A stretch of 64,000 nucleotides of DNA. Source: Kibdelosporangium sp. MJ126-NF4 (GTDB taxonomy: Bacteria > Actinomycetota > Actinomycetes > Mycobacteriales > Pseudonocardiaceae). The stretch lies in assembly GCF_000826545.1 (NCBI RefSeq), contig NZ_CDME01000008.1, positions 1,116,001-1,180,000 on the forward strand. The letters are read 5' to 3'. Below the pieces are notes generated by a model, which was not told where the DNA came from, made no database searches, and saw only the letters and a list, made by a program, of their open reading frames with translations. This document shows positions 13,706 to 61,713 of this stretch, piece after piece. How positions within the stretch are numbered: position 1 is the first letter of the stretch; each line of letters begins with the position of its first letter. The position numbers were made by a program, and so were the translations under genes.

Positions 13706-13729
13706 CGTTTCTGTCGCAAGGGGGAACCG

Positions 13730-14158: not shown

Positions 14159-14206
14159 TTTTCCTTTCGCACGGTTCTCGTTTTCGGATGGGTGCGGTGG
14201 TCGGTC

Positions 14207-18069: not shown

Positions 18070-18088
18070 CCGCGAAGGGGAGAACGGC

Positions 18089-43401: not shown

Positions 43402-43526
43402 AACGGGCCTCCTGGGAAGGCAGGACGTGTGTGGCCGTGGTGGACGGTTGTGCAGACTATCCGTGTCGATATGACGCTGGTCACGGTTGTGTTCATTTCG
43501 GTCGCGCGTCGCGGAGGTTACGGATC

Positions 43527-46287: not shown

Positions 46288-46378
46288 GAGAATCGAACTA
46301 CCCAGGTAACCGCCACGCGGTGTGTCGCCTACCCGGCCGGTGGCTGTTACTCGCGGGTATCGGGGTTGACTGGAAGTC

Positions 46379-47677: not shown

Positions 47678-47816
47678 GAACACCCTGCCCAGGAACACAC
47701 GGTGTCGGGCCGGTTCCGGTACGTGGTACTTCGTGCCCAGATGCTGATCGGTGTCTGTCGTGGGAGAGACTGGTTCGGTGGTGGGCCGGACGAGCCCGGC
47801 ACGTGAGGCTGTCGAG

Positions 47817-48488
47817 ATGATCAGGGTTCTGGTGGTCGAGGACGATCCCGTCGCCGCCGACGCGCACCGGCTCTACGTGGAGCGGGTCGCGGGATTCTCG
47901 GTGTCCGGTGTCGCGCACACCGGAGCCGGGGCGAAGCGGTTCGCCGAGCAGCACCCGATCGACCTGCTCCTGCTCGACCTCTACCTGCCCGACGGGCACG
48001 GCCTGCAGATCAGCCGGGCGCTGCGGGCGGCGAACCCGAACATCGACGTGATCGCCGTGACCTCGGCGCGTGACCTGGCGATGGTCCGGGCCGCGGTGTC
48101 CGCCGGTGTCGTGCAGTACCTGCTCAAACCGTTCACCTTCGCCGCACTGCGGGACAAACTCGAGCGCTACGCCCAGTTCAGGGACACGGTGACGGCAGCG
48201 GGGGAGGCCGCTGGCCAGGCGGACGTCGACCGCGCACTGGCGACCTTGCGAGGTACTGAGGGCATCGGGCTGCCCAAGGGGATGAGCGCGGACACGCTCG
48301 ACTCGGTCGTGGCCGCGTTGCGGGAGACCCGGGAGGGTCTCTCCGCGGTCGGCGCCGCGAGCGCCGTGGGCATCTCGCGGGTCACGGCCCGGCGCTACCT
48401 CGAGCACCTCGCGGACACCGGAACCGTTGTCCGGCGTCCGCAGTACGGCCAGGTCGGGCGGCCCGAGCTGTTCTACCGCCTGCCGTAG
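47817..48488 (+). CDS. CitB/DcuR-type response regulator
   Basis: A 223-residue response regulator. Receiver: VLVVEDDP acidic pair, phospho-accepting aspartate in LLLLDLYLPDG, threonine in VIAVTSARD and lysine in YLLKPF. The C-terminal winged HTH (SAVGAASAVGISRVTARRYLEHLADTG) is the CitB/DcuR type. It is the natural partner of the kinase at 43527, although two genes intervene. The ATG at 47817 puts the first receiver strand at the N-terminus; upstream GTGs remain in frame. Its last 16 bases overlap the convergent hexosaminidase gene. Confidence 0.9.
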   Translation: MIRVLVVEDDPVAADAHRLYVERVAGFSVSGVAHTGAGAKRFAEQHPIDLLLLDLYLPDGHGLQISRALRAANPNIDVIAVTSARDLAMVRAAVSAGVVQYLLKPFTFAALRDKLERYAQFRDTVTAAGEAAGQADVDRALATLRGTEGIGLPKGMSADTLDSVVAALRETREGLSAVGAASAVGISRVTARRYLEHLADTGTVVRRPQYGQVGRPELFYRLP

Positions 48489-49984
48489 CTTTCCGGCAGT
48501 TCACGGGTTCGGCTCGGCACACCGGGGCGGGTCTGCCATGGGTGTGGGCCGGTGAGCGGCCGGTACTCCACACCCATGGCATCCAACCTGGCCAGGTGGT
48601 GGTTGACCAGGCGGGCTTCGAACTCCGCGTAGGAGCGGCCGTCCGGCGAGGACCAGACAACCTCGGCGAACGCGGCAAGCCGGGGGAAGGTGGCGTAGTC
48701 CACGCGCCGGGAGTTGTCCAGGTGCTCGGACCAGACCTGGGCCTGCGCGCCGAGAACGTGCTTGTGGAACTCCTCCTTCAGCCCCGGCGGGATCGGCTCG
48801 TAGCTGTAGACGTCCTCAAGGGTGTGCACGAAGCCGACCGGGATCGGCTCGTCCGGGTGCCGGGACTGCCGGTGGTCGAGGTAGACGTACTGCTCCGGGC
48901 ACATCACCACGTCGTGCCCGGACGACGCGGCCGTGACGCCAGCTTCCTCACCACGCCACGAGCCGACGACCGCGTCCTCGGGGAGGTCGCCGACATCGAG
49001 CATCTCGTCCCAGCCGAGCGCGCGGCGGCCGTGTTTGGTCAGGTGGCCCGCCAGCTGGCCGAGGAACCAGCCGTGCAGCTGCGCCTCGGAGGTGTACCCG
49101 AGCTCGGCCATCCGCTGGATCGCGACTGGGTTGTCCTTCCACTGCACCGTCGGCACTTCGTCGCCGCCGATGCAGATCACCGGGCCGTCGAAGACGTCCA
49201 TCACGTGGTCGAGCACCGTCTTGTAGAACTCGATCGTGTCGTCGGAGACGTTGAGGATGTCCTCGCTGATGCCCCACGCGGGCCGGACCGGGATCCGCTC
49301 GCCGGTGTTGCCCAGCTCCGGGTACGCCGCGATGGCCGCCTGGCTGTGGCCGGGAACGTCCACTTCGGGCACGATCGTGATGTGCTGTTCCCTGGCGTAC
49401 GCCACCAGCTCACGCATGTCCTCGGTGGTGTAGAAACCGCCGTGCGGGCGACCGTCGTTGTCCTTGGTGCCGTTGGGCGGGCGGCCGACCCACGACGCCG
49501 TGCGCCAGCTGCCGACCTCGGTCAGCTTCGGGTACGCCGGGATCTCGATGCGCCAGCCCTGGTCGTCGGTCAGGTGCAGGTGCAGCACGTTGAGCTTGTG
49601 TGCCGCCAGCTGGTCGATGAACCGGAACACCTCGTGCTTCGGCTTGAAGTGCCGTGCCACGTCGAGTAAAACGCCACGCCACGCGAAGCGGGGGGCGTCC
49701 TCGATCACACCACAGGGCAGCTTCCACGGTCCCTTGTGGATCGACGCGGCCCTGAACCGGTCGGCTCCGTACAGCTGGCGCAGGGTCTGCGAGGCGTAGA
49801 ACGCGCCTGCCGCGTCGGCGACCTCGACCCGGACACCTTGTGGTGTGATGGTGATCCGATAGCCCTCGGCGGGCAGTGCGCCGGTGTAGACGACCGACGG
49901 CTGCGCCGGTGCGTCACTGACGAAGGTGCCGTCAGCCGGTGTCACTGTCGAGGGTTTGGGCAGTAGACCTTCGAAACTCGTCAT
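48473..49984 (-). CDS. Beta-N-acetylhexosaminidase (GH20)
   Basis: A 503-residue glycosidase without obvious signal peptide, so probably cytoplasmic. The GH20b domain is followed by the (beta/alpha)8 barrel: WRGVLLDVARHF, LHLHLTDDQGWRIEI, IVPEVDVPGHSQAA and the catalytic Asp-Glu pair in ICIGGDEVPTVQW. It releases GlcNAc from chitobiose and similar oligomers. It is the last gene of the das-like operon, overlapping the permease gene by four bases, so imported chitobiose would be split inside the cell. Confidence 0.93.
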   Translation of the reverse strand: MTSFEGLLPKPSTVTPADGTFVSDAPAQPSVVYTGALPAEGYRITITPQGVRVEVADAAGAFYASQTLRQLYGADRFRAASIHKGPWKLPCGVIEDAPRFAWRGVLLDVARHFKPKHEVFRFIDQLAAHKLNVLHLHLTDDQGWRIEIPAYPKLTEVGSWRTASWVGRPPNGTKDNDGRPHGGFYTTEDMRELVAYAREQHITIVPEVDVPGHSQAAIAAYPELGNTGERIPVRPAWGISEDILNVSDDTIEFYKTVLDHVMDVFDGPVICIGGDEVPTVQWKDNPVAIQRMAELGYTSEAQLHGWFLGQLAGHLTKHGRRALGWDEMLDVGDLPEDAVVGSWRGEEAGVTAASSGHDVVMCPEQYVYLDHRQSRHPDEPIPVGFVHTLEDVYSYEPIPPGLKEEFHKHVLGAQAQVWSEHLDNSRRVDYATFPRLAAFAEVVWSSPDGRSYAEFEARLVNHHLARLDAMGVEYRPLTGPHPWQTRPGVPSRTRELPESYGRR

Positions 49985-50871
49985 CCTTTGACCGCTCCTG
50001 AGATTCCGGACGCCAGGTGCCGTTGTACGAAGATGAAGAAGACCAGCACCGGGATCGTCATCAGTGTCGCCCCGGCCATGATTCCGCCCCAGTCCAGTTC
50101 TTCCGGCTTGTAGAACACCCGCATCGCCTGGGGCAGCACACGGTTGTCGATGTCGGAGAAGATCAGCGTCTGCGCGAACAGGAAGTCGTTCCACGCGTGG
50201 ATGAACGCCAGCACACTGGTCGCCACCAGACCGGGCGCCACCAAGGGGAACAGCACCTGCCAGGTGAACCGGAACCGGCTCGCGCCGTCCAGCGCCGCCG
50301 CCTCCTCCAGTTCGGCGGGTACGGCCGCGACGAACCCGCGCAGCATCCAGATCGCGAACGGCAGGCTGAACGCCAGGTTCACCAGCACCAGCGGCGCCAG
50401 CTGGTTCAGGCCGAACGCGGGCACGTTCGTGCCGACCTGCTGGACCATGAAGAACAGCGGGATCGTCAGCGCCTCGACCGGGACCATCTGCGCCACCAGC
50501 AGCATCACCAGCAGCACGGTCCGGCCCTTGAACCGGAACCGGGTCAGCGCGACCGCGGACAGGAACGACAGCAGCATCGACAACGCCACCACGCAGATGG
50601 CGACGATGACGCTGTTGACGAAGTAGCGCCCGAAGCCGTTGGTGCCCAGCACCCGCTGGAAGCTGTCCAGGCTCGGTGCGAACGTCCACGGTGTGGCGCC
50701 CTGGATCTCACCGGCCGGTTTGAACGCCGACAGCACCATCCAGTACAGCGGGAACGCCACCATCGCGGCGATCACACAGCAGGCGATCTCGGCGATCAGC
50801 CGTCCGGGGCTGCGCCGCTTCCTGCGTGTCGATCCCGTCACGTCGACGAGGGGCACTGTCACGGTTGCCAT
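49981..50871 (-). CDS. Sugar ABC transporter permease (DasC-like)
   Basis: A 296-residue binding-protein-dependent permease with six spans. The EAA loop is present (ELEEAAALDGASRFRFTWQVLFPLVAPG). Pairs with the permease encoded upstream to import chito-oligosaccharides. No ATPase gene is in the operon; in streptomycetes the shared MsiK ATPase energises DasABC, and the same probably holds here. Confidence 0.9.
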   Translation of the reverse strand: MATVTVPLVDVTGSTRRKRRSPGRLIAEIACCVIAAMVAFPLYWMVLSAFKPAGEIQGATPWTFAPSLDSFQRVLGTNGFGRYFVNSVIVAICVVALSMLLSFLSAVALTRFRFKGRTVLLVMLLVAQMVPVEALTIPLFFMVQQVGTNVPAFGLNQLAPLVLVNLAFSLPFAIWMLRGFVAAVPAELEEAAALDGASRFRFTWQVLFPLVAPGLVATSVLAFIHAWNDFLFAQTLIFSDIDNRVLPQAMRVFYKPEELDWGGIMAGATLMTIPVLVFFIFVQRHLASGISGAVKG

Positions 50872-51803
50872 CCGGACCTCCGTTGTGTCCGCAGGTACAC
50901 CACCGTGATCAGCATCAGCAGCACTGTCATCACGACACCGATCGCCGCGCCGAGGCCGTATTCCTCACCGGCGAACGCCTTCTGGTAGGTGTAGACGTTC
51001 AGCACGAGGTTGCGGCCCGCGATGCCGCCGCCGTTGGTCATCACGTAGATCTGGGTGAAGAGCTTGAAGTCCCAGATGATCGACTGGATCGTGGCGATCA
51101 CGATCAGCGGCTTGAGGATCGGCAGGATCACCTGCGTCGCGGTGCGCCGCCAGGTGGCGCCGTCCAGCTGCGCGGCCTCGAGGATCTCCGAGGAGATGTT
51201 CTTGATGCCCGCGTACATCGTGACCAACACGAACGGGAACGAGCACCAGATGACTTCACCGGCAACCAGCCCGAACGCCGAGAACCGCTCGAAGTTCCAC
51301 GCGTGTCCCCGCATCCCGAGGATCTCGTTGACCACACCGAAGTTCGCGTCGAACAGGAACAGCCACACGTACGATCCGGCCATCGCCGGGGTCGCCCACG
51401 CGCCCAGCGCGGCGAGGAAGAGCAGCATCCTGGGAACCGGGCGGACCCGCGTGGCCAGCACCGCGAGCGCGGTGCCGACGACCAGGCTGCCGATCACGCA
51501 CACCGCGGCGAACAGGATCGTGGACACCAGCACCGACCAGAACTGCGTGTCGCCGAACAGCTCGATGTAGTTGTCCAGTCCGATGAACACCAACGGTTCC
51601 GCGCCGCTGGCCTGCGGCTGGTTGTACTCGTACAACGAGATCTGCACCAGCTGGTACAGCGGGTAGGCCATCAGCGCCAGCAGCAGGACACCGGCGGGCA
51701 GCAGGTAGAAGGCCGCCGCCCGGCCGTCCCGCTTCTTGCGGACAGGCCGCTGCGGCGCCGGGACTTCCAGGTCCGGCGCCGCAGGGGCTAGTTGCGTCGT
51801 CAT
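50859..51803 (-). CDS. Sugar ABC transporter permease (DasB-like)
   Basis: A 314-residue MalF-type permease with six spans, a long cytoplasmic N-terminus and EAA-type loop (SSEILEAAQLDGATWRRTATQVILPILKPL). It overlaps the binding-protein stop by one base and the next permease start by 13 bases, showing tight coupling. Substrate is inferred from the neighbouring hexosaminidase and DasA-like binding protein. Confidence 0.9.
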   Translation of the reverse strand: MTTQLAPAAPDLEVPAPQRPVRKKRDGRAAAFYLLPAGVLLLALMAYPLYQLVQISLYEYNQPQASGAEPLVFIGLDNYIELFGDTQFWSVLVSTILFAAVCVIGSLVVGTALAVLATRVRPVPRMLLFLAALGAWATPAMAGSYVWLFLFDANFGVVNEILGMRGHAWNFERFSAFGLVAGEVIWCSFPFVLVTMYAGIKNISSEILEAAQLDGATWRRTATQVILPILKPLIVIATIQSIIWDFKLFTQIYVMTNGGGIAGRNLVLNVYTYQKAFAGEEYGLGAAIGVVMTVLLMLITVVYLRTQRRSGWQP

Positions 51804-53113
51804 CAGCTACCGAACGCCTTGTTCATCTCACCCGCCGCCGCGTCCGTCGCGGCGTCGACCGACTGGCCGCCGGTGGCGACCTGCTGGATCGCGGTCGGGA
51901 TGATGGCCTGGGCGTCGATCTTCGTCCACGCCGGGGTGGCCGGCACGAACTTGGCGCCGCCCTGCGTGGCCTTCACGAACGGCTCGACGAACTTGTCCGT
52001 GCTGGCGACCTGCTCCTGGACGTCCTTGAACGTCGGCAGGTTGCCCATCGCGGTGTACATCTTCTGCTGGTACTTCTTGCCGCCGAGCAGTTTGATGAAC
52101 TCCAGCGACAGCGTGTATTTCTTGCTCGCGCCGAACACGCCGAGCAGGTTGCCACCGGCGAACGGCGGCGCGGTCGAGCCAGCCTCCTTGCCCGGCAACG
52201 GAACGACGGCGAACTTGCCCTTCACCGCGCCCGCCTCGACGGCCTTGCGGTTGAAGTCGCCACCGATCGTCATGGCCGCCTTGCCACCGGCGAACTGGGC
52301 GACCGACTGGCTGCCGTTGAGCTGCGCACACGCGGACGGCGGGCAGATGTCGTCCTTGAGCAGCTCGGCGTACTGCTTGAGCCCGTCACGGGCCTTCGGG
52401 TCGGTGATCGCCGACGTCCACTTGTCACCGTCCTGTTTGGCCAGCTCGCCACCGTTGGCCCAGATGTAGGGGAAAGCTGCGTAGACGTACTTGCCACCGA
52501 CCGCGATGCCGTACAGATCCGGCTTGGCCTGGCGGATCTTGCGGGCGGTCTCGGTCACCTCGGCGAGGGTCTTCGGCGGCTGCAGGCCGAGCTCGGTGAA
52601 CACGTCGGTCCGGTAGTACAGCGCGCGAGTTCCGGTGTACCACGGGATTCCGAACGTCTTGCCCTTCACCTTCGCGGTGTCGAGCACCGACGGGATCAGG
52701 TCCTTGCTGTCCGGCCACGCGCCGATGTCCTTGGTCAGGTCGGCGAACCCGTTGGACGCGGCATAGCCCGCGAGGTCGGTGTTGCCGAACTCGGCGACGT
52801 CAGGGGAGGAGTTCTTGTCGTTGAAGGCACCGTTGAACCGGGTCGCGCGGCCGTCGGTCGGCAGGTACTCCACAGTGACCTTGACGCCCTGGTGCGCGGC
52901 CTCGAACTCCTGCTTGGCCTCGTTGACCGCGGCTTCCTTGGGGCCGTTGCTGGCCTCCTGGAACATCCACACCTTCAGCTCACCGGTCATCTCGCCGACC
53001 GGCTGGCCCGCGTTCCCGGTCTGCTGCGGCTGGTTGTTGGCGGCCTGCGGTGGACCACATGCGACTACTAACGCCCCCACAGCGGCTGCAGCCAGCAAAC
53101 CTTTGATCTTCAT
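51803..53113 (-). CDS. Chitobiose/GlcNAc ABC transporter substrate-binding lipoprotein (DasA-like)
   Basis: A 436-residue family 1 solute-binding protein. Signal peptide with lipobox LVVACG. WMFQEASNGPKEAAVNEAKQEFEAAHQGVKV and FGIPWYTGTRALYYR are typical for the DasA/NgcE group of chito-oligosaccharide binders. First gene of the operon. GGAGG lies 5 bases before the ATG. The upstream region has a promoter, a DasR-like box and the TTGC-N7-GCAA element. Confidence 0.9.
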   Translation of the reverse strand: MKIKGLLAAAAVGALVVACGPPQAANNQPQQTGNAGQPVGEMTGELKVWMFQEASNGPKEAAVNEAKQEFEAAHQGVKVTVEYLPTDGRATRFNGAFNDKNSSPDVAEFGNTDLAGYAASNGFADLTKDIGAWPDSKDLIPSVLDTAKVKGKTFGIPWYTGTRALYYRTDVFTELGLQPPKTLAEVTETARKIRQAKPDLYGIAVGGKYVYAAFPYIWANGGELAKQDGDKWTSAITDPKARDGLKQYAELLKDDICPPSACAQLNGSQSVAQFAGGKAAMTIGGDFNRKAVEAGAVKGKFAVVPLPGKEAGSTAPPFAGGNLLGVFGASKKYTLSLEFIKLLGGKKYQQKMYTAMGNLPTFKDVQEQVASTDKFVEPFVKATQGGAKFVPATPAWTKIDAQAIIPTAIQQVATGGQSVDAATDAAAGEMNKAFGS

Positions 53114-53124
53114 TGTTCCTCCGG

Positions 53125-53139
53125 TTGCGTCTGTTGCAA
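53125..53139. promoter_or_regulatory. TTGC-N7-GCAA operator of the das-like operon
   Basis: TTGCGTCTGTTGCAA lies directly upstream of the dasA-like Shine-Dalgarno sequence. Nearly the same sequence, at the same distance from GGAGG, precedes the deaminase operon (59468-59482). I infer that it is the operator of the IclR protein encoded at 60580. Confidence 0.6.
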
Positions 53140-53167
53140 CACGCGTTTCGCATAAAGCAATGCCGCG

Positions 53168-53196
53168 ATGCTAGAACGGACAATTGCCAGACACAA
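53168..53196 (-). promoter_or_regulatory. Promoter of the das-like operon
   Basis: On the reverse strand TTGTGT (53191-53196), 17 bases, TAGCAT (53168-53173). The DasR-like box overlaps the upstream edge of the -35. Confidence 0.55.
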
Positions 53197-53210
53197 GGGT
53201 CTAAACCAAT
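53195..53210. promoter_or_regulatory. DasR-responsive element (dre)-like site
   Basis: AAGGGTCTAAACCAAT. The core GGTCTAAACC (53198-53207) matches nine of ten bases of the known dre core GGTCTAGACC. Position next to the -35 of a das-type operon supports repression by a DasR-like GntR protein that responds to aminosugar phosphates. Confidence 0.7.
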
Positions 53211-53228
53211 GCCCCCACCGCAGGTAGA

Positions 53229-53278
53229 CCATCGTGAGTGTTTAGGCGAGTTCTAACTCGCCTAAACACTCACGATGG
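53229..53278 (-). terminator. Perfect 24-bp inverted repeat terminator
   Basis: Arms 53229-53252 and 53255-53278 are perfectly complementary with a two-base loop centre. It lies 11 bases beyond the lactonase stop and insulates that operon from the das-like promoter. Confidence 0.85.
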
Positions 53279-53289
53279 CTGACCAGGGG

Positions 53290-54420
53290 TTACTTGAAGG
53301 AGACGATGCCGACGTTGCCGACCTTCGCCGTGACCACCGAGGCACCGAGCTTTCCGGTGGCCGGATCGCGCGGCAGCCAGTTGATCGTGCCCGCGCGCTG
53401 GTTCGACACGTACACCCTCGTCCCGGACGGGTCGAACGTGAAGTGCCTCGGCCACGAGCCGCCGGTCGGTGTGGTGCTGACGAACTCCAGCGTCTTGCCG
53501 CTCTCGCACACCGTGAACTGGGCCAGGCTCTCGTGCCCTCGGTTGGTGGCGTACACGAACCGCCCGTCCGGCGAGATCTGGATCTCGCCGGGGTAGTTCT
53601 CCGGCGGTGTCGCGCCACCGAGCGTACTGATCACCTGACCGGCCGTGAACTTCCCGGCCGCCGAATCCCAGGCCAGCACGGTCACTTCCGACCGCAGCTC
53701 ACCGAGGACGTAGGCGTACCTGCCGTTCGGGTGGAACGTCAGGTGCCGGGGGCCGAGGCCAGTGGGCAGGGCGAGCTGCTGGTTGAGCTTCAGCTTGCCC
53801 GTGCTGCTGATGCCGTAGACGTACACCGAGTCCGTACCGAGGTCGACGGCGACGATCCACCGCCCGCTCGGATCGGTGACGACCTGGTGCGCGTGCGCGG
53901 CCCGGCTGCCCCCGGTGTGCGTGACGACATCCGTCACCGCGCCCACCCGGCCGTCGGCCTGCAGCGACAGCACCGAGACACTGCCGCTGGTGTAGTTGGC
54001 CGCGAGCAGGTAGTTGCCGTGGATGCTGGCGTGCGTCGGCGCGGCACCGTTGACGTTGGCCGAGTTGAGCACCTTCGGCCGTTGTGGGTCGGCGATGCTG
54101 AACGCGGTGATCTTGCCGGGATCCGACTCGATCGTCGTGTACAGCACCTTGCGGTCACGCGAGAACACGAACCACGATGGGTCCGCGATCCCGTTCACGG
54201 TGTTCGTGATGGTGAGCTTGCCGGTCGCCGAGTCGACGGTGCCGACCTGGAAACCGGGGCCGGGCGGGTTCCCCCAGCTCGTGTAGCTCCCGATGTACAC
54301 AGTGGACACGTATTTCCCCTGCGTCTGATCCGATTGGGCTGAAGCCGGTACTCCCGTAGCCAGCATTAAGCCACCGACTCCGGCGGCGCCGAGGAGTGTC
54401 CGCCTGTTGAAATCCGTCAC
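53290..54420 (-). CDS. Tat-exported lactonase, seven-bladed beta-propeller (YbhE/Pgl type)
   Basis: A 376-residue secreted protein. Twin-arginine signal NRRTLLGAAGVGGLMLATG ending ASA. The propeller shows repeated strands (SWFVFSRDRKVLYTT, SIHGNYLLAANYTSGSVSVL, AHAHQVVTDPSGRWIVAVDLG, GPRHLTFHPNGRYAYVL, GEIQISPDGRFVYATNRG), typical for lactonase/3-carboxymuconate cyclase-like proteins. The GTG at 54420 has AGGA nine bases upstream. Last gene of the aldonate operon. A secreted lactonase would open aldonolactones, for example C1-lactones left by chitin-oxidising LPMOs, before uptake; that is inference. Confidence 0.85.
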   Translation of the reverse strand: MTDFNRRTLLGAAGVGGLMLATGVPASAQSDQTQGKYVSTVYIGSYTSWGNPPGPGFQVGTVDSATGKLTITNTVNGIADPSWFVFSRDRKVLYTTIESDPGKITAFSIADPQRPKVLNSANVNGAAPTHASIHGNYLLAANYTSGSVSVLSLQADGRVGAVTDVVTHTGGSRAAHAHQVVTDPSGRWIVAVDLGTDSVYVYGISSTGKLKLNQQLALPTGLGPRHLTFHPNGRYAYVLGELRSEVTVLAWDSAAGKFTAGQVISTLGGATPPENYPGEIQISPDGRFVYATNRGHESLAQFTVCESGKTLEFVSTTPTGGSWPRHFTFDPSGTRVYVSNQRAGTINWLPRDPATGKLGASVVTAKVGNVGIVSFK

Positions 54421-54446
54421 CTGTGCTGATCCTCTCCGTGCAGGGA

Positions 54447-55859
54447 TTAGATGAAGATCATCAAGACCGCGGCGACCGCGAAGCCGACCACGGACAAGAT
54501 GGTTTCCAGCACTGTCCAGGTCTTCAGCGTGTCCTTCACGGAGATGCCGAAGTACCGGGACACGATCCAGAACCCGCCGTCGTTGACGTGCGAGGCGATG
54601 ATCGAACCGGCGCAGATGGCGGCGACGATGAGCGCCAGTTGTGGTTGCGTGTAGCCCGCGCCCGCGACGGCCGGGGCGATGATGCCCGCCGACGCCGCGA
54701 TCGCTGCGGTGGCCGAACCCTGTGCGATCCGCAGACCGCACGAGATCAGGTACGCCGCCACGAGCACCGGCAAGCCGATACCCTTGAAGGAATCCTGCAG
54801 GGCACCGCCGATCCCGCTGGCTTTCAGCACGGCGCCGTAGAACGCACCCGCACCGACGACGAGCAGGATCATGGCGACCGGCTTGAGCGAGGCGTTGGCG
54901 ATCGTGGAGACCTCGCTGCGGGTCATCCCTCGGCGGTAGCCGAGAAGCCAGAAGGCCAGCAGCACGGAGATCGTCAGTGCGATGGCCGGAGTGCCGAAGA
55001 AACTGGCTACCCCGACAGCGAATGACTTCGCAGGGAGCAGGATGCTGCCGAACGTGCCGACGAGGATCAGCACGAGCGGAGTCGCGATGATCGCGATGAC
55101 CGTGCTGAGCTTCGGCTCAGCCGGTGCGGTGGCGGTACCGGGCCCCTCCTGCTTGCGACCGGCCTTCGCCGCCTCCAGCATTTCCTCCGGCACCTCGATG
55201 TGGATGCGGTTGCCGATCCGGTTGGCGAACCACAGCCCGACCCCCCATGCGGGGATCGCGCAGATCGTGCCGAACAGGATCACCCAGCCGAGACCGACGC
55301 CGAGCTGAGCGGCCGCGGCGGTGGGACCGGGGTGCGGTGGCAGGAACGCGTGCGTCACCGACAGACCGGCCAGCAGAGGCAGGCAGAACAGCAGGATCGA
55401 CTTGCCGGACTGCTTGGTCACCACGTAGATCAGCGGCGCGAGTACGAAGATGCCGATGTCGAAGAACACCGGGATACCGAAGATCAGACCGGCGAGCCCC
55501 ATCGCCAGCGGGGCCCGTTTCTCGCCAAACGCCTGCAGGAGTTTGCGGGTCAGCACATGTGCGGCACCGGACGCCTCCAGGATGGCACCGAGGAACGTGC
55601 CCATTCCGATGATGACCGCGATGTGACCGAGGATGCCGCCGAAGCCGTTCTCGATCAACGACCCCGAGTTGCTCTTCTGGATGGAGCCGACCAGAGTCTC
55701 CACCGGGATTCCGGCGGCCAGCGCGGTACCGACACCGACGATCAGCAACGCGATGAAAGGCTCGACCTTCCACCAGATGATCATCGCAAGCAGCAGTGCG
55801 ATACCGATCGCGGCGAGCGTGAGCAGCCCGCCTGTCGAGTGTTGCAACCAGTCCACCAT
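54447..55859 (-). CDS. Gluconate/aldonate:H+ symporter (GntP-like)
   Basis: A 470-residue GntP-family transporter with 12-14 spans. VIIGMGTFLGAILEASGAA, FDIGIFVLAPLIYV, HAFLPPHPGPTAAA and the C-terminal GSATAAIAASAGI and ASHVNDGGFWIVSRY are all family signatures. It imports gluconate or related aldonates. In this operon its natural cargo may be N-acetylglucosaminate or glucosaminate rather than gluconate, because deacylase and PLP-enzyme genes stand next to it. Confidence 0.92.
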   Translation of the reverse strand: MVDWLQHSTGGLLTLAAIGIALLLAMIIWWKVEPFIALLIVGVGTALAAGIPVETLVGSIQKSNSGSLIENGFGGILGHIAVIIGMGTFLGAILEASGAAHVLTRKLLQAFGEKRAPLAMGLAGLIFGIPVFFDIGIFVLAPLIYVVTKQSGKSILLFCLPLLAGLSVTHAFLPPHPGPTAAAAQLGVGLGWVILFGTICAIPAWGVGLWFANRIGNRIHIEVPEEMLEAAKAGRKQEGPGTATAPAEPKLSTVIAIIATPLVLILVGTFGSILLPAKSFAVGVASFFGTPAIALTISVLLAFWLLGYRRGMTRSEVSTIANASLKPVAMILLVVGAGAFYGAVLKASGIGGALQDSFKGIGLPVLVAAYLISCGLRIAQGSATAAIAASAGIIAPAVAGAGYTQPQLALIVAAICAGSIIASHVNDGGFWIVSRYFGISVKDTLKTWTVLETILSVVGFAVAAVLMIFI

Positions 55860-55874
55860 GGACTGCTCCTCATA

Positions 55875-55918
55875 TTCTCTTAGTGACGCGTTGCGGTTCT
55901 CTAGTGACGCCTTGCGGT
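55875..55918. repeat. Tandem 22-bp repeat spanning the aldolase stop
   Basis: TAGTGACGCGTTGCGGT (55881-55897) and TAGTGACGCCTTGCGGT (55902-55918) differ at one base and both are preceded by TTCTC. The second copy is the end of the KDPG aldolase gene including its stop, so the first copy is a recent duplication of that end into the short gap before gntP. Confidence 0.8.
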
Positions 55919-56533
55919 CGCGACGGCGTCGACGAACTCGCTTGCCCGCTGCCGGATTTCAGCCAACCGTGACTCGGCGGCCAGTGCTGGGGAGACCACG
56001 CCGCTGCCCGCGGTGACCGCGAGCGCTCCGGCGTCAAGGAACTCCGCGGCGTTGGCGGCGGTCAGACCGCCAGTCGCCACCAGGGGAGTTCCCGGGTACG
56101 GGCCGTGCAGGTCCTTGAAGTACGCCGGACCCAGCCGCGCTGCCGGGAACACCTTGACCGCTGTGGCGCCCATGTCCACAGCGTCGGCCACCTCGGTCGG
56201 GGTCATCGCCCCGAGCACGACCGGCACACCCTGCTTGGTCGCCTCGGCCACGACTTTCGGTCGCAGACCGGGCGTCAGCAGGAACCTCGCTCCCGCGTTG
56301 ATCGCGTCGCGAGCGTTCTGCTCGCTCATCACCGTGCCCGCACCGAGGATCAGACCGTCCACAGTGGCGGCCTGCTCCATCAGCCGGGGCGCGTCCGGCG
56401 TGGTGAAGGAGAACTCCACGATCGGCAGACCCGCCTCGACCAGCGTCCGGCCGAGCCCGACCGGGTCGGCGATCTTCTCGGCCCTGATGATGCACAGCGA
56501 ACGCCACGCGGTCAGCTCGGCGATGAGATCCAT
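55901..56533 (-). CDS. 2-keto-3-deoxy-6-phosphogluconate aldolase
   Basis: A 210-residue class I aldolase. The catalytic glutamate is in LPIVEFSFTTPDA and the Schiff-base lysine in ATAVKVFPAARLG; GAGTVMSEQNARDAINAGARFLLTPG completes the barrel. It cleaves KDPG into pyruvate and glyceraldehyde-3-phosphate. It follows the deacylase gene by two bases. Substrate comes from the divergent KDG kinase. The family also includes 6-phosphogalactonate aldolases, so the stereochemistry is not proven. Confidence 0.9.
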   Translation of the reverse strand: MDLIAELTAWRSLCIIRAEKIADPVGLGRTLVEAGLPIVEFSFTTPDAPRLMEQAATVDGLILGAGTVMSEQNARDAINAGARFLLTPGLRPKVVAEATKQGVPVVLGAMTPTEVADAVDMGATAVKVFPAARLGPAYFKDLHGPYPGTPLVATGGLTAANAAEFLDAGALAVTAGSGVVSPALAAESRLAEIRQRASEFVDAVATARRH

Positions 56534-56535
56534 GG

Positions 56536-58128
56536 TTACCGAACTCCCGGGTTGCGCAGGGAATGGCCCGGGGTGGCACCCGTGTGGGTCCCGTCGTCGA
56601 TCACCGGGACACCATTGACCAGCACGTAGGGAATACCGGTCGCGACCTGCCTCGGCTCGTCGAAAGTCGCGGTGTCCGCCACCGTGTCCGGGTCGAACAG
56701 CACGAGGTCGGCGGCGAAGCCCTCGCGGACCAGCCCCCGGTCGGCCAGGCGCAAACGATTGGCCGCACGGCCGGTCAGGTGCGCGACGCACTCCTCCAGG
56801 CCGAGCACGCCCAGCTCACGCACGTACCGGGCGAGGTAGCGCGGGAACGTGCCCCACGAACGCGGGTGTGGGCGTTCGCCGACGAGGATCCCGTCGCTGC
56901 CGCCGGTGTGCGCCGGGTGCTTCATGATCGCTCGGACGTTGTCCTCGTGGCCGACGTGCATCAGGCACGAGGTACCCATTCGTTCCTCGATCAACACGTC
57001 GAAGTACAGATCCGCCGGTGCTCGCCCCGCGGTGCGGGCCGACTCGGCCACGCTGTGCCCGACCAGGTGCAGGTTCGAGTCCCTGCGCACGCCGTTGATC
57101 TCGATCGACTCCCAGTCGACCGGAACGCCGTGGCAGCCGTCGGACCCGTTCTCCTCGAGGTCGGCACGGATCCGCTCGCGGGTGTCCTGATCGGACATCC
57201 GGGCGATCGCCGCGTCCGGCCCGCCCTCGGTCGACCAGCTCGGCAGCAACGCCGACAGGTAGGTCGCGCCGGGCAGGTAGGGGTACGTGTCGAGCGTGAT
57301 GTCGCTGCCGTCGGCGATCGCCTCGTCCAGCAGGGCGAGCAGCTCCACGCCACGGCCCTTGTTGACCGGGAAGTTCATCGTGGCGTGTGCCAGGTGCAGC
57401 GGGCAGCCCGACCGCCGGGAGACGTCGACCATCTCGGCGTACGCCTCCAGCGCACCGGCGCCGTAGCTGCGGTGGTGCGGGCTGTAGTAGCCGCCGAGCT
57501 TGCCGGTGACCTCGCACAACGCCACCAGTTCCGCGGTGTCGGCGTACATCCCGGGCGTGTAGGTCAGGCCGGAGGACAGGCCCATCGCGCCTTCGCGCAG
57601 GCCCTGCGCGACGACCTCCTTCATCCTGTCCATTTCGGACTCTGTCGGCGGCCGCGCGTCCCAGCCGACCACCATCATCCGGATCGTGCCCTGCGGCAGC
57701 AGGTAGGCCGCGTTCACCGCGATGCCCTGGTCGAGCCGGTCGAGGTACTCGCCGACACTTCGCCAGTTCCAGTCGAACCCGGCCGGGTCGTCGTTCCACC
57801 CGGCCAGTTGCGCACGAAGCCCGGCCAGCGTCTCGTCGTTGACCGGTGCGTACGACAGGCCGTCCTGGCCGTAGACCTCGCTGGTCACTCCCTGCGAGAC
57901 CTTGGCGAGGTGGTCCGGCTCGGCCAGCACCTGCAGGTCGGAGTGGGAGTGCATGTCGATGAAGCCGGGCGCGAGGACCAGGCCGCTCGCGTCGACCACG
58001 CGGGTGGCGTCCAGCCGTCTGCCGGTCGCGATCTCGGCGATCCGCCCGGCCTGCAGGCCGACGTCCGCCTGGTAACGCGGCGCGCCGGTGCCGTCGACGA
58101 CAGTGGCACCGCGGAACGCGATATCCAT
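56536..58128 (-). CDS. N-acyl-D-amino-acid/N-acyl-aminosugar-acid deacylase
   Basis: A 530-residue amidohydrolase of the D-aminoacylase group. Metal-binding GFIDMHSHSDLQVL; YGQDGLSYAPV; GLSSGLTYTPG; PHHRSYGAGALEAYAEMVDV; LHLAHATMNFP; and HTGGSDGILVGERPHPR with the catalytic aspartate. Homologues remove N-acyl groups from D-amino acids. Operon partners suggest N-acetyl-D-glucosaminate as the real substrate, an acid whose C2 has the same N-acetyl-amino-acid pattern. Coupled closely to aldolase and PLP-enzyme genes. Confidence 0.85.
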   Translation of the reverse strand: MDIAFRGATVVDGTGAPRYQADVGLQAGRIAEIATGRRLDATRVVDASGLVLAPGFIDMHSHSDLQVLAEPDHLAKVSQGVTSEVYGQDGLSYAPVNDETLAGLRAQLAGWNDDPAGFDWNWRSVGEYLDRLDQGIAVNAAYLLPQGTIRMMVVGWDARPPTESEMDRMKEVVAQGLREGAMGLSSGLTYTPGMYADTAELVALCEVTGKLGGYYSPHHRSYGAGALEAYAEMVDVSRRSGCPLHLAHATMNFPVNKGRGVELLALLDEAIADGSDITLDTYPYLPGATYLSALLPSWSTEGGPDAAIARMSDQDTRERIRADLEENGSDGCHGVPVDWESIEINGVRRDSNLHLVGHSVAESARTAGRAPADLYFDVLIEERMGTSCLMHVGHEDNVRAIMKHPAHTGGSDGILVGERPHPRSWGTFPRYLARYVRELGVLGLEECVAHLTGRAANRLRLADRGLVREGFAADLVLFDPDTVADTATFDEPRQVATGIPYVLVNGVPVIDDGTHTGATPGHSLRNPGVR

Positions 58129-58157
58129 TTCGGACTCCCTTGTCAGAAACAGTTCTG

Positions 58158-59453
58158 TCAGAAATAGGTCCGGATGAAGTCGACCACTGTCTCACCGTCC
58201 GCACTGACAACGGGAAGCAGCTGCCACTTGTCGAACACCGTGCACGGGTGGGACAGGCCGAGGCCGATCCAGTCGCCGACCCGCACGTCGGCACCGTTGG
58301 GCTCTAGGTAGGCGTGCTGGTCGTTGAGCGAGGTGATCACCGCGCCGGTCAGCGGCAACGTCGTGTCGTCGCGGCGGATCAGTTGCGGCTCAGGCAGTCC
58401 CTCGTCGAAGGACGCGTCCCGCTTGCCGATGGTCAGCAGCGCGAGGTTCTCCTCCGGCTTGGACGTCACCTGCGCCCACGCGCGCAGCGCGCTGCGGAAG
58501 CTCGAGGTGCCGTCGATCCGGGAGTGCGCGCCCAACGGCGAGTTCTCGCGGTAGAAGCCGTCGTCGTGCGTGAGGTACGCGCCGCTGCGCAGCAACGGGA
58601 ACACGTTCAGGCCTTCCGGCCACGGCTCGGTGAGCGCGTCGGCGACGTGGTCGAAGTACGCGCTGCCGCCGACCGTGACGATCACGCGCTCGGGATCCTC
58701 GAACTTGTCGGCCAGGTGGATGGTGACCGTGCGGATCTGGCTGAGGAAGTCGTCGATCGCCTTGAGGCCCGCCGAGTCCGCCGCGTGGGCGAGCGAGCCT
58801 TCCCAGCCCGCGGTGCCGACGAGCCTGAGCACCGGGCTGGCCACGATCGCGTCCGCGACCGCCTCGGCTGTCTCGGCCGTGCGCGCGCCGGTACGGCCGC
58901 CGGGTGCGCCGACCTCGACGAACATGTTGACCTGGCGTTGCGAGCCCCGCAGGCCCTCGGTCATCAGCTCGACCGCGCGGACCGAGTCGGCCCAGCAGTA
59001 GAACTCGAAGCCCGGGTTGTCGGCGAGTTCCCGCGCGAGCCAGCGCAGGGCGTTCGGGTCGACCAGCTGGTTGGCCAGCAGGATCCGGCTCACGCCGAAC
59101 GCGCGGTACACGCGCAGCTGGCTGGCGTTCGCCGTGGTGATCGCCCAGCACCCGGCTCCGAGCTGGCGCTGGAACAGTTGCGGCGCCATCGTCGTCTTGC
59201 CGTGCGGCGACAGCGCGAGGCCACGCGATTCGCACCAACGGCGCATGGTCACCAGGTTGTGTTCGATGGCATCGTTGTCGAGCACAACCAGCGGACCGAC
59301 GAAGCCGTCGGTGAACAACTTCGGGTGCGTGGCCAGTGCCTCGGCCACGGTCTTGCCGAACAGCGCGTCCGGCATGCCTTTGAAACGCCAGTCGATCCGT
59401 TCGTCGGCCAGTCGAGTCACCGCGTCGAGATCCATGCTCGCCGGTTCGACCAT
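58158..59453 (-). CDS. D-serine dehydratase/D-threonine aldolase-like PLP enzyme (probable D-glucosaminate deaminase)
   Basis: A 431-residue fold III (alanine-racemase-like barrel) PLP enzyme. The PLP lysine is in LSPHGKTTMAPQLFQ; the metal site is in LGLSHPCTVFDKW, where a His-x-Cys pair is typical for DSD1-like dehydratases. Annotated relatives are 'amino acid deaminases'. In this operon, beta-elimination of D-glucosaminate to 2-keto-3-deoxygluconate plus ammonia would link deacylase and KDG kinase; RidA downstream fits, because it hydrolyses the enamine. The ATG at 59453 has GGAGG eight bases upstream; earlier ATGs lack one. Confidence 0.82.
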   Translation of the reverse strand: MVEPASMDLDAVTRLADERIDWRFKGMPDALFGKTVAEALATHPKLFTDGFVGPLVVLDNDAIEHNLVTMRRWCESRGLALSPHGKTTMAPQLFQRQLGAGCWAITTANASQLRVYRAFGVSRILLANQLVDPNALRWLARELADNPGFEFYCWADSVRAVELMTEGLRGSQRQVNMFVEVGAPGGRTGARTAETAEAVADAIVASPVLRLVGTAGWEGSLAHAADSAGLKAIDDFLSQIRTVTIHLADKFEDPERVIVTVGGSAYFDHVADALTEPWPEGLNVFPLLRSGAYLTHDDGFYRENSPLGAHSRIDGTSSFRSALRAWAQVTSKPEENLALLTIGKRDASFDEGLPEPQLIRRDDTTLPLTGAVITSLNDQHAYLEPNGADVRVGDWIGLGLSHPCTVFDKWQLLPVVSADGETVVDFIRTYF

Positions 59454-59467
59454 CTGGGTATCCTCCA

Positions 59468-59482
59468 TTGCGTCTCTTGCAA
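59468..59482. promoter_or_regulatory. TTGC-N7-GCAA operator of the aldonate operon
   Basis: TTGCGTCTCTTGCAA, one base different from the das-operon element and again directly upstream of GGAGG. It lies between the deaminase promoter and its start codon. Probable IclR-family operator. Confidence 0.6.
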
Positions 59483-59509
59483 CGGCTATTGCGCGATGTG
59501 CTGCGGTGG

Positions 59510-59539
59510 TGTGTAGCATCCCCATCGCCGCCAGGTCAA
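59510..59539 (-). promoter_or_regulatory. Candidate promoter of the deaminase-deacylase operon
   Basis: On the reverse strand TTGACC (59534-59539), 18 bases, TACACA (59510-59515). The divergent KDG kinase promoter must lie close by; I could not assign it. Confidence 0.45.
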
Positions 59540-59614
59540 CGTTCGCAACTGCCCGCCAACGAGCCCCCCGCGCTGGGTGATCGCTTCGGCACGGGGAAAG
59601 GATGGGAAGCTTCA

Positions 59615-60583
59615 GTGGAGACCGATGTGCTGTGCCTCGGTGAGTCCATGGCGCTGTTCGTGCCGGGCGAGCCGGGACCGGTGGACCAGGTCCGTACGTG
59701 GATCCGGACCGTCGGCGGCGCCGAGTCCAATGTGGCCTGCAACCTGGCCATGCTCGGCCTGCGGTCGAAATGGGTCAGCGCGGTCGGTCAGGACGCCTTC
59801 GGTCAGGCGGTGGTCTCCGCGGTCGAGTCCTGCGGTGTGGACGTGTCCCAGGTGCTGGTCGACTCCGTCCGGCCCACCGGGCTCTACGTCAAGGAGAGCA
59901 ACGCGGGCGGCAGCCCGGTCCGCTACTACCGCCGCGGTTCGGCCGCGTCCGGGATGGACCTCTCGCTGCTGGACCAGCTCGACCTGAACGTCCGGGTCCT
60001 GCACCTGACCGGCATCACGGCCGCGTTGTCCGACTCGTGCCTCGAGCTGGTGCGTGCCCTGTTCGCGGTGCCGCGCACGACGTTCCGGCTGTCGTTCGAC
60101 CTGAACTGGCGGCCGAGACTGTGGAGCGACCGTGACCCGTCCGTGCTGCGGGAGTTGGCCAACGCGGCGGACATCGTGCTGGTCGGTGACGACGAGGCGT
60201 TGGCCGTGTGGGGAACGAGCGACCCGGCGGAGATCCGGCGGATCGTGCCCGACCCGGCGACGCTCGTGGTGAAACACGGCTCGCGGGGAGCGACCCTGAT
60301 CGAAGGCGATACCCGCCTTTTCCAGCCTGCGCTGCGCGTCGACGTCGTCGAGCCGGTCGGCGCGGGCGACGCGTTCGCGGCCGGATTCCTCGCCGCGACA
60401 CTGGCCGGTGACCCACCCGCGCGCAGACTCCGTTCCGGCCACCTGCAGGCCGCCACGACACTGCGAACCCATGACGATGTCGGTACTCCGCTGCCGTCCG
60501 AACTGGTGACGTCGTTGCTCAACGCGGACGCGGACGAGTGGGCCGCTGCCCACCTCACCGAGCAAGGGGTGTTACAAGCATGA
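59615..60583 (+). CDS. 2-keto-3-deoxygluconate kinase (PfkB family)
   Basis: A 322-residue ribokinase-fold sugar kinase. Start VLCLGESMALFVP, first signature RTVGGAESNVACNLAMLG, DLNWRPRLW typical for KDG kinases, and the catalytic aspartate in EPVGAGDAFAAGFL. It phosphorylates KDG to KDPG for the aldolase at 55901. The GTG at 59615 gives the family start; GGGAAG precedes it. A TTA codon lies at 60572-60574, four codons before the end. ATGA overlap couples it to the IclR gene. Confidence 0.88.
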   Translation: METDVLCLGESMALFVPGEPGPVDQVRTWIRTVGGAESNVACNLAMLGLRSKWVSAVGQDAFGQAVVSAVESCGVDVSQVLVDSVRPTGLYVKESNAGGSPVRYYRRGSAASGMDLSLLDQLDLNVRVLHLTGITAALSDSCLELVRALFAVPRTTFRLSFDLNWRPRLWSDRDPSVLRELANAADIVLVGDDEALAVWGTSDPAEIRRIVPDPATLVVKHGSRGATLIEGDTRLFQPALRVDVVEPVGAGDAFAAGFLAATLAGDPPARRLRSGHLQAATTLRTHDDVGTPLPSELVTSLLNADADEWAAAHLTEQGVLQA

Positions 60584-61323
60584 GCCAAAGTTTGGACAGG
60601 GCGTTGACCCTGCTCGACGGCCTCGCCGAAGGGCCACGCACGCTCGACCAGCTTGCCGGGCTCATCGGCGTGCACAAGTCGACCGTCCTGCGTCTGCTGC
60701 GGACGCTCGAGTCGCACCGGTTCGTCCAGCGTGACGGCGTGCGTTACTACCGGCTCGGCACGGCCCTGTTCGACCTCGCGCACCGCTCGCTGGAGGACCG
60801 TGACGTCCGCAGGAGCGTGGAACCGGCGCTGCGGGAACTGAACGCCCAGACCGGGCACACCGTGCACCTGGCCTCCTACGAGGACGGCGAAGTCGTCTAC
60901 ATCGACAAGTTCGAAAGCCGCCACCAGGTCCGGATGTACTCCAGGATCGGCAAACGAGCGGCACTGCACTGCACGGCGGTCGCCAAGATCCTCGTGTCAG
61001 CACTGCCGGACGAACGCCGCCGCGAGATCGCCAAAGGGATCACCTACGAGAAGAAGACCGAGAACACCATCATCACGCCCGAGGCCTACCTGACCGAGCT
61101 GGCGACCGTCGCCGCACGCGGCTACGCGGTCGACAACTCCGAGCACGAGGACTTCATCCACTGCATCGCCGCGCCGATCCGCAGAGCCCGTGGCGACGTG
61201 CTCGCGGCGATGTCGCTGTCCGTGCCGAAGGTACTGTTGGATCTTGACGGGTTGCTGGGGCTCGTCCCCGACTTGCTACGCGCGGCGGAGAAAGCGTCCG
61301 CCGAGTGCGGGTATCACCGATAG
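60580..61323 (+). CDS. IclR-family transcriptional regulator
   Basis: A 247-residue IclR regulator: winged HTH SLDRALTLLDGLAEGPRTLDQLAGLIGVHKSTVLRLLRTL, then the GAF-like effector domain (GHTVHLASYEDGEVVYIDKFES, MYSRIGKRAALHCTAVAKILVS, SEHEDFIHCIAAPIRRA). It probably senses an aldonate, KDG or KDPG and controls the divergent operon. Its likely operator TTGC-N7-GCAA is also found before the das-like operon. Confidence 0.92.
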   Translation: MSQSLDRALTLLDGLAEGPRTLDQLAGLIGVHKSTVLRLLRTLESHRFVQRDGVRYYRLGTALFDLAHRSLEDRDVRRSVEPALRELNAQTGHTVHLASYEDGEVVYIDKFESRHQVRMYSRIGKRAALHCTAVAKILVSALPDERRREIAKGITYEKKTENTIITPEAYLTELATVAARGYAVDNSEHEDFIHCIAAPIRRARGDVLAAMSLSVPKVLLDLDGLLGLVPDLLRAAEKASAECGYHR

Positions 61324-61335
61324 GAAAGGAAGCAC

Positions 61336-61713
61336 ATGTCCAGGACCTTCATCCACCCCGAGGGCACCGTGAAGCCGCCAGTGCCGCTGTCGCACGGGGT
61401 GCGGAAGGGCAACATCCTCCAGGTCGCCGGCCAGGTCGCGTTCGACCAGCAGGGCGAGGTCGTCGGCACCACGGTGGCCGAGCAGACCCGCCAGACGCTC
61501 GCGAACGTCAAGCGGGTGCTGGAAGCGGGCGGCGCCTCGTACGACGACGTGGTGATGTTCCGCGCCTACCTGACCGATGTCGCACACTTCGCCGAGTTCA
61601 ACGCCGCCTACGCCGAGGTGCTCGGCTCGGACTTCCCGGCACGCACCACTGTCTACGTCGGCCTGCCGCCCGGCCTGCTCGTCGAGATCGACGCGCTCGC
61701 CGTCGTGGACTGA
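61336..61713 (+). CDS. RidA-family enamine/imine deaminase
   Basis: A 125-residue RidA/YjgF protein. VAGQVAFDQQGEVVG, the substrate-binding arginine in VVMFRAYLTD and the glutamate in GLPPGLLVEIDALAVV are present. It hydrolyses reactive enamines released by PLP dehydratases. Placement behind kinase and IclR genes, divergent from a PLP dehydratase, makes it a helper of that reaction. GGAAAGGAAG precedes the ATG. Confidence 0.92.
   Translation: MSRTFIHPEGTVKPPVPLSHGVRKGNILQVAGQVAFDQQGEVVGTTVAEQTRQTLANVKRVLEAGGASYDDVVMFRAYLTDVAHFAEFNAAYAEVLGSDFPARTTVYVGLPPGLLVEIDALAVVD

Follow-up and report, generated by a model that had tools for sequence, protein, structure and literature searches.

The closest described system for the use of chitin ends oxidised at C1 is the ong cluster of Pseudoalteromonas prydzensis ACAM 620, which encodes the GH20 enzyme OngA, the deacetylase OngB, the pyridoxal phosphate (PLP) dependent deaminase OngC, the kinase KdgK and the RidA protein OngD, together with the SSS symporter OngIT, a TonB receptor and the MurR/RpiR regulator OngR; the versions of the cluster in Vibrio, Klebsiella and Serratia add kdgA (PMC9537276). 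Chitin-active AA10 lytic polysaccharide monooxygenases (LPMOs) leave chain ends of N-acetylglucosaminate (GlcNAc1A), the deletion of OngD abolishes growth on GlcNAc1A, and OngC deaminates D-serine and D-threonine as well (PMC9537276). The taxa reported to carry ong are Gammaproteobacteria and one Betaproteobacterium, and the main text contains no mention of actinobacteria, Streptomyces, lactonase, IclR or GntP (PMC9537276). In Paraglaciecola, a GH20 gene was described in 2020 adjoining genes for a deaminase, a D-aminoacylase and RidA (PMC7014002). No actinobacterial version of the pathway was found in those parts of the literature that were searched. Described here is a candidate for such a version, a locus at positions 48473–61713 of a 64-kb stretch of contig NZ_CDME01000008.1 from Kibdelosporangium sp. 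MJ126-NF4 (hereafter the window, meaning the whole stretch of DNA that was analysed).

The locus is likely to serve as a regulon for fragments of chitin oxidised at C1 and to be the counterpart of ong in actinobacteria, arranged around a non-orthologous deacylase. It resembles ong in holding a GH20, a D-aminoacylase-like deacylase, a fold-type III PLP enzyme, a PfkB kinase similar to 2-keto-3-deoxygluconate (KDG) kinases and RidA; enzyme for enzyme its genes match the ong set with kdgA added, and the order of reactions proposed for it is the same, with deacetylation, deamination to KDG and then phosphorylation (PMC9537276). Where ong has an SSS symporter, a MurR/RpiR regulator and a TonB receptor with a periplasmic GH20, the window has GntP, IclR and an ABC importer with a GH20 that is cytoplasmic as judged by eye. 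In place of the ong deacetylase OngB the window has a non-orthologous Asp-type deacylase, and the host belongs to the Actinomycetota rather than to the Gammaproteobacteria or the one Betaproteobacterium, with a Tat-type lactonase also present. Gene content, synteny, a gene fusion, the distribution of an operator and co-occurrence were computed; the substrate, each reaction and the IclR protein as binder of the operator are what we infer.

In the proposed route, AA10 LPMOs encoded elsewhere in the genome would leave lactone and aldonate ends on chitin, and the Tat-exported lactonase would open the lactone extracellularly. Oxidised chitobiose (GlcNAc-GlcNAc1A, GlcNAc being N-acetylglucosamine) would be imported by the ABC importer and cleaved by the cytoplasmic GH20 to GlcNAc and GlcNAc1A, with free GlcNAc1A entering through GntP. 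The Asp-type deacylase would strip acetate from GlcNAc1A to give glucosaminate, which the PLP enzyme, helped by RidA, would deaminate to KDG; the PfkB kinase would convert KDG to 2-keto-3-deoxy-6-phosphogluconate (KDPG) and the aldolase would split KDPG to pyruvate and glyceraldehyde-3-phosphate. The IclR protein would control the units through operators of the form TTGC-N7-GCAA.

Deacylase and GH20 are found in one stop-free frame, of 1103 and 1110 aa, in two genomes of the class (L099, 8542–11853, minus strand; L100, 8592–11924, plus strand). The deacylase part is of the Asp type, and the fusion genes adjoin PLP and RidA genes in both genomes. A search with the second fusion protein (L100) against 5.8 billion proteins scored 7983 candidates and kept 286; PF07969 and PF00728 occur together in 120/120 of the homologues listed among those kept, and the organisms named by the sources for these 120 are all Microbacterium. 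The names given in the sources are family 20 glycosylhydrolase, hexosaminidase and N-acyl-D-amino-acid deacylase. The natural fusion of deacylase and hexosaminidase gives strong evidence for a deacylase that would handle a product of GH20. No earlier report of such a fusion was found in the portions of the literature searched. The frames that follow the fusion in L100, at 12023–13210 and 13251–14216, appear by eye to be a regulator and a kinase of the ROK type.

The second line of evidence is an operator. The pattern TTGC-N7-GCAA has exactly two matches in the 64 kb, at 53125 and 59468. The first, TTGCGTCTGTTGCAA (53125..53139), lies 11 nt upstream of the start codon of the importer gene, and the second, TTGCGTCTCTTGCAA (59468..59482), in the divergent promoter of the PLP and kinase genes; the 16-mers of the two copies differ in one base. 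A strict-arm palindrome search yielded no shared site, and the operator was noticed by eye afterwards, its support being the count across genomes. There are 95 sites in the 80 loci examined (1.65 Mb), with a copy at the PLP/kinase promoter in 71/74 loci that have a PLP gene and upstream of GH20 in 4/4 Actinokineospora loci. Twelve of the 95 sites are unlabelled, one of which (L036, 20543) lies close to where another GH20 frame has its 5' end. The IclR protein encoded at the locus is the presumed binder of these operators. In whole genomes, TTGCRNNNNNYGCAA sites exceed a reversed-pattern control in G001 (59 versus 12) and G010 (48 versus 10), which suggests either a larger regulon or another motif that shares this shape; the counts in G018 (10 versus 11) and G020 (11 versus 16) show no excess, and that in G017 is 19 versus 11.

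The earlier note on this DNA had proposed a check for co-occurrence with AA10 genes across actinomycete genomes, and the association is there. Among 394 genomes drawn evenly from the class, with a deacylase match above 500 bits counted as positive, the deacylase family is present in 74, AA10 in 121 and GH20 in 132. AA10 occurs in 59/74 of the deacylase-positive genomes versus 62/320 of the others, and GH20 in 64/74 versus 68/320, counts that ignore kinship. Ten genomes with only 39–44% identical matches are classed as deacylase-negative in these figures, seven of them with AA10. In the genomes of at least 6 Mb (n = 120, a stratum that leaves out the ~9 of 394 genomes without a size), the values are 50/52 versus 38/68 for AA10 and 52/52 versus 32/68 for GH20. 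With IolB (PF04962), a catabolic gene taken as a control, the figures for these large genomes are 64/81 versus 24/39 (p 0.05), and there is no effect among those that are deacylase-negative (18/33 versus 20/35). Additionally, AA10 was found in 35 of the 39 cases with a genome among 40 deacylase loci chosen from the 80, and G001, whose deacylase is 97% identical, has four AA10 matches.

These counts bear on whether the same chemistry might serve another N-acetylhexosaminate, such as N-acetyl-galactosaminate or N-acetyl-mannosaminate, or the oxidised termini of glycans from teichoic acid, mucin or peptidoglycan, in place of oxidised chitin. GH20 enzymes take both GlcNAc and N-acetylgalactosamine. 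The best model for the kinase spans KDG and 2-keto-3-deoxygalactonate (KDGal), the ong cluster of Klebsiella (L097, 7571–14835) is annotated with a KDGal kinase and an aldolase for the corresponding phosphate (KDPGal), and twelve Lentzea loci have a neighbouring gene in common, identified in L004 as a GH36 alpha-galactosidase. We nonetheless hold another aldonate to be unlikely, given the strong co-occurrence with AA10 LPMOs, of which the chitin-active ones give GlcNAc1A ends, and a gene content resembling that of the ong cluster, which was tested on GlcNAc1A (PMC9537276).

Synteny around the deacylase is far above chance. In the sample of 80 genome loci with a deacylase homologue, searched with 13 query genes, the closest locus found is that of Actinosynnema sp. 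ALI-1.44 (deacylase 97% identical), and L001 holds all 13 query genes in the same order. The five-gene core, that is the homologues of the PLP enzyme, deacylase, kinase, IclR and RidA, is complete in 64/80 loci, and GntP is present in 61, lactonase in 30, GH20 in 26 and aldolase in 13. A lactonase is accompanied by GH20 and by an orthologous importer protein (a solute-binding protein, SBP, of 50% identity or more) in 22/80 loci, which include Amycolatopsis, Thermocrispum, Herbihabitans, one Saccharopolyspora and Actinoalloteichus, the last with the PLP and kinase genes absent from the stretch. Homologues of the KDG kinase, KDPG aldolase and GntP recur in varying subsets in Pseudonocardiales, Rhodococcus, Tsukamurella, Arthrobacter, Kribbella and Rothia. 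Four Actinokineospora loci keep GH20 with a different importer (30–42% identical), a lactonase without a Tat motif and GntP absent from the stretch, as would be expected if all entry were oligomeric and the lactone were opened inside the cell.

The deacylase itself, and several features of its wider context, weigh against an oxidised-chitin regulon. This protein (56536..58128, minus strand; PF07969, 149 bits) is an N-acyl deacylase of the amidohydrolase superfamily, of the Asp type by alignment, and is proposed as the GlcNAc-aldonate deacetylase. Orthology to OngB was considered and rejected on bit scores, key residues and tree. Compared with solved structures it scores 266 bits with the D-aminoacylase AfDam (1M7J), 257 with the N-acyl-D-glutamate deacylase BbDam (3GIP), 249 with 9G5M and 211 with PpOngB (9KB1/9KB3; PMC12017989), so D-aminoacylases outscore PpOngB as its relatives; for comparison, an OngB of Pseudoalteromonas scores 580 bits with PpOngB versus 418 with AfDam. 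Its identity to two OngB-type proteins is ~30%. PpOngB is also an amidohydrolase by homology and shares two His metal ligands with the window deacylase, in which the HxH pair, His222, His252, Asp368, Arg379, Tyr285 and Tyr194 of PpOngB are all kept. The OngB metal ligand Cys97 is replaced by Asp89, and the column holds Asp in 79/80 homologous loci (one gap) and in 46/57 rows of a wider set, where the 11 Cys rows take in all OngB-type proteins. Further, Lys254 is replaced by Thr, Val or His, Glu226 by Tyr, and Ser292 by a Thr that is invariant (21/21); the change Ser292Thr lowers the efficiency of PpOngB to 1.3% (PMC12017989). The insertion region is longer than in PpOngB, and the alignment around Gln298 is unreliable. 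In a tree that has some long branches and contains no D-aminoacylase of known structure, 10 rows, the OngB proteins among them, split off from the other 47 at a support of 100/100.

AfDam and BbDam carry Thr at the Ser292 position, as the window deacylase does (PMC12017989), but they keep the Cys ligand, unlike the window deacylase, and a sugar-acid neighbourhood is no part of their definition. The protein matches neither the Cys/His/His metal site with Ser292 of the OngB type nor the Cys/His/His site of the subtype V D-aminoacylases (AfDam/BbDam), having Asp where these have Cys. A haloarchaeal homologue (41%) is found near urocanate hydratase. Since the deacylase is non-orthologous to OngB, homology cannot supply its activity, and the argument has to come from its surroundings. 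The mixed locus of Cupriavidus metallidurans CH34 (L095, 4966 to past 11060), with an OngB-like deacylase beside homologues of the PLP enzyme, kinase, KDPG aldolase, RidA and GntP, bridges the ong and actinobacterial pathway types.

Further points against the reading come from the context. The core occurs without a match to GH20, lactonase or SBP in 41/80 of the stretches examined, and the operator stands upstream of SBP in only 7/29 loci with an SBP match. AA10 is absent from 15/74 deacylase genomes, nine of which are also without GH20, and the AA10 family also includes cellulose-active enzymes. Queries with seven AA10 places turned up no AA10 gene either in the window or in L001–L118. In G017, G018 and G020, for which all sites of a slightly stricter form of the pattern were listed, every AA10 gene is more than 300 bp from the nearest operator; AA10 genes linked to the locus or sharing its operator are not supported in this material. 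Five homologues of 48–50% identity (L102–L105 and L107), from genomes of 1.3–2.2 Mb without an AA10 or GH20 match, have no kinase match in the stretch, several having PLP, RidA or ABC permease matches, and these possibly act on another substrate. Additionally, PLP relatives in Pantoea and K. variicola that have IclR and RidA adjoin amino-acid ABC genes, and because of this PLP, IclR and RidA alone are not diagnostic.

Such neighbourhoods speak for a rival reading, an N-acyl-D-amino-acid pathway in which the deacylase would free D-amino acids, for example from cell walls or peptides, the PLP enzyme would deaminate D-serine or D-threonine, RidA would clear enamines and the sugar genes would be chance neighbours. 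The nearest solved deacylases are D-aminoacylases, OngC itself takes both amino acids (PMC9537276), and a PLP relative in Comamonadaceae has an ABC importer and a D-aminoacylase of the Cys type as neighbours. Against this reading, homologues of the KDG kinase, KDPG aldolase and GntP recur with the deacylase-PLP pair across the groups named above, in Microbacterium the deacylase and GH20 form a single polypeptide, and the unit of importer and GH20 is preceded by the same operator. A pathway for D-amino acids is on these grounds quite improbable. The route for GlcNAc-aldonates first read from this DNA was contradicted by none of the tests made here and is backed by the fusion, the shared operator and the co-occurrence with AA10 and GH20, but with a deacylase that is no OngB orthologue.

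The gene set named from the DNA is present in full. Every gene is an open frame within the locus, and all ten proteins run against Pfam exceed the gathering score, with matches to GH20, SBP, the PF10282 lactonase, GntP, KDPG/KHG aldolase, Amidohydro_3, D-ser_dehydrat/Ala_racemase_N, PfkB, IclR and RidA (Ribonuc_L-PSP); only GntP (TIGR00791) and the aldolase (TIGR01182) pass NCBIfam cut-offs. A first minus-strand unit runs from the divergent promoter at ~59453–59615 through the PLP enzyme, deacylase, KDPG aldolase, GntP and lactonase, a second, past a 24-bp hairpin, holds the solute-binding protein, two permeases and GH20, and the plus strand carries the PfkB kinase, IclR and RidA.

The PLP enzyme (58158..59468, minus strand; PF14031, 65 bits, run on 58158–59525, and PF01168) is of fold-type III, D-serine-dehydratase-like and OngC-like, and is proposed as the glucosaminate deaminase/dehydratase. 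Judged from the sequence, its start is probably at 59453 or 59468, later than that of the longest open reading frame (59525). It has the motifs PHGKT, DQH and SHPC common to OngC-type proteins and is 33–36% identical to them; its membership of the OngC type holds at family level only, because the tree separates the proteobacterial OngC group from the actinobacterial one. The best solved relative is the D-serine deaminase 3GWQ (255 bits over residues 69–455), for which no link to glucosaminate was seen in the material examined. The RidA component of the ong pathway is likewise present, as a counterpart of OngD (61336..61713, plus strand; PF01042, 107 bits) that is 31–32% identical to the ong RidA proteins. 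RidA had been put forward as a step new to the pathway, a claim that fails, since OngD is already part of the ong cluster and its loss abolishes growth on GlcNAc1A (PMC9537276).

The lactonase was the other step thought to be new. It is a seven-bladed propeller protein (53290..54420, minus strand; PF10282, 336 bits, run on 53290–54426) with the Tat-type start NRRTLLGAAG, and a Tat motif of the RRxFL type is found in 26/30 loci with a lactonase match, the four exceptions all being Actinokineospora. Its novelty is weakened by two ong loci that carry a lactonase at the end of the cluster: in Vibrio THAF64 a PF10282 protein with no signal by eye (L082, 16852–17880), and in Pseudoalteromonas NC201 an SGL lactonase (PF08450) with a signal-like start (L081, 15662–16552). 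No lactonase is annotated in the ong stretches of CF6-2, P. shioyasakiensis and Klebsiella, where annotation is incomplete; the Klebsiella stretch has no annotated GH20 either. Because two lactonase families adjoin the same pathway, the data suggest a step that is real but optional. In Eleftheria terrae (L087, 5610–8143) the gene of an annotated lactonase family protein comes directly before a PLP relative (40% identical to the window PLP enzyme), with no deacylase among the annotations of the stretch. Three Saccharopolyspora loci (L034, 13129–14850; L047; L055) have a 573-aa protein with a Tat-like start between GntP and lactonase; a sugar oxidase was considered for it and rejected by Pfam, run for L034 only, which identifies an amidohydrolase that could be an extracellular deacetylase.

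The GH20 beta-N-acetylhexosaminidase (48473..49984, minus strand, ~503 aa; PF00728 370 bits and PF02838 53 bits, run on 48473–50002) starts near 49984 with no signal peptide by eye, which points to a cytoplasmic enzyme, and the starts of its orthologues in 10 loci likewise lack one by eye. Upstream of it on the same strand are ABC importer permease 2 (49981..50871), permease 1 (50859..51803) and the solute-binding protein of a carbohydrate ABC importer (51803..53113; PF13416/PF01547). The permeases, outside the Pfam set of ten, were identified from open frames and homology to other loci, with syntenic homologues in Pseudonocardiales, and the unit has no ATPase gene. The importer had been called chitobiose-type, a name that has to be withdrawn because SBP scores 31 bits with the NgcE model, far under its cut-off of 399.65; the GanS and MalE models score higher, all far under their cut-offs. 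Between the lactonase and importer genes lies a strong hairpin (53228..53279, minus strand) with a 24-bp stem and −44.9 kcal/mol, a possible terminator with no T run after the stem. Importer and GH20 are probably a transcription unit of their own, since this hairpin divides them from the lactonase gene and they have their own copy of the operator.

Of the remaining genes, the GntP-family aldonate:H+ symporter (54447..55859, minus strand) has 404 bits with PF02447 and lies above the TIGR00791 cut-off, and the KDPG/KHG aldolase (55901..56533, minus strand; PF01081, run on 55901–56548) scores 158.7 bits with TIGR01182 (cut-off 156.05). The PfkB-family, KDG-kinase-like sugar kinase (59615..60583, plus strand; PF00294, 165 bits) has the KDG/KDGal kinase model NF040938 as its best NCBIfam match (157 bits, under the cut-off of 400), both run on 59627–60583. 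The best model for the KdgR-like IclR-family regulator (60580..61323, plus strand; PF01614/PF09339) is KdgR, NF011671, at 171.5 bits, under the cut-off of 275.

Beyond the locus, the window holds at 42055–48488 a dicarboxylate symporter (PF00375), a sensor kinase with an sCache_3_2 domain and a response-regulator-like frame (47751), which adjoins GH20 and whose counterpart in several Amycolatopsis loci lies beyond GH20. A single frame at 46379–47677 combines a low-molecular-weight phosphotyrosine phosphatase domain with what is, by eye, a membrane part. A probable biosynthetic gene cluster at 3440–41883 includes a BTAD-type (SARP-like) regulator at 3440, a frame at 38830 that looks much like it, tandem ketosynthases at 17984–20515, an asparagine synthetase-like protein at 21606–23423 and a BBE oxidoreductase at 9908–11296.

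Actinomycetes are major degraders of chitin in soil. Nothing on how they handle its oxidised ends was found in those sections of the literature that were searched. The deacylase family is present in the 74 of 394 sampled genomes noted above, not all of which need carry the whole route. In public records its genes go under the names N-acyl-D-amino-acid deacylase, alanine racemase and sugar kinase, much as the earlier note foresaw. We lean, by a modest degree, towards a history in which GlcNAc-aldonate deacetylation arose outside the OngB line, in the Asp-type family across soil actinomycetes, with the Microbacterium fusion acting as one cytoplasmic enzyme that would split oxidised chitobiose and deacetylate its aldonate half. 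If so, Gram-positive bacteria would have built up an oxidative chitin pathway separately, under an operator code of its own. The fusion provides a ready test enzyme and the operator sites a predicted regulon. Because this gene set of soil actinomycetes most likely serves the use of oxidised chitin chain ends, a job known so far mainly from marine bacteria, its spread on land probably goes beyond what has been described.

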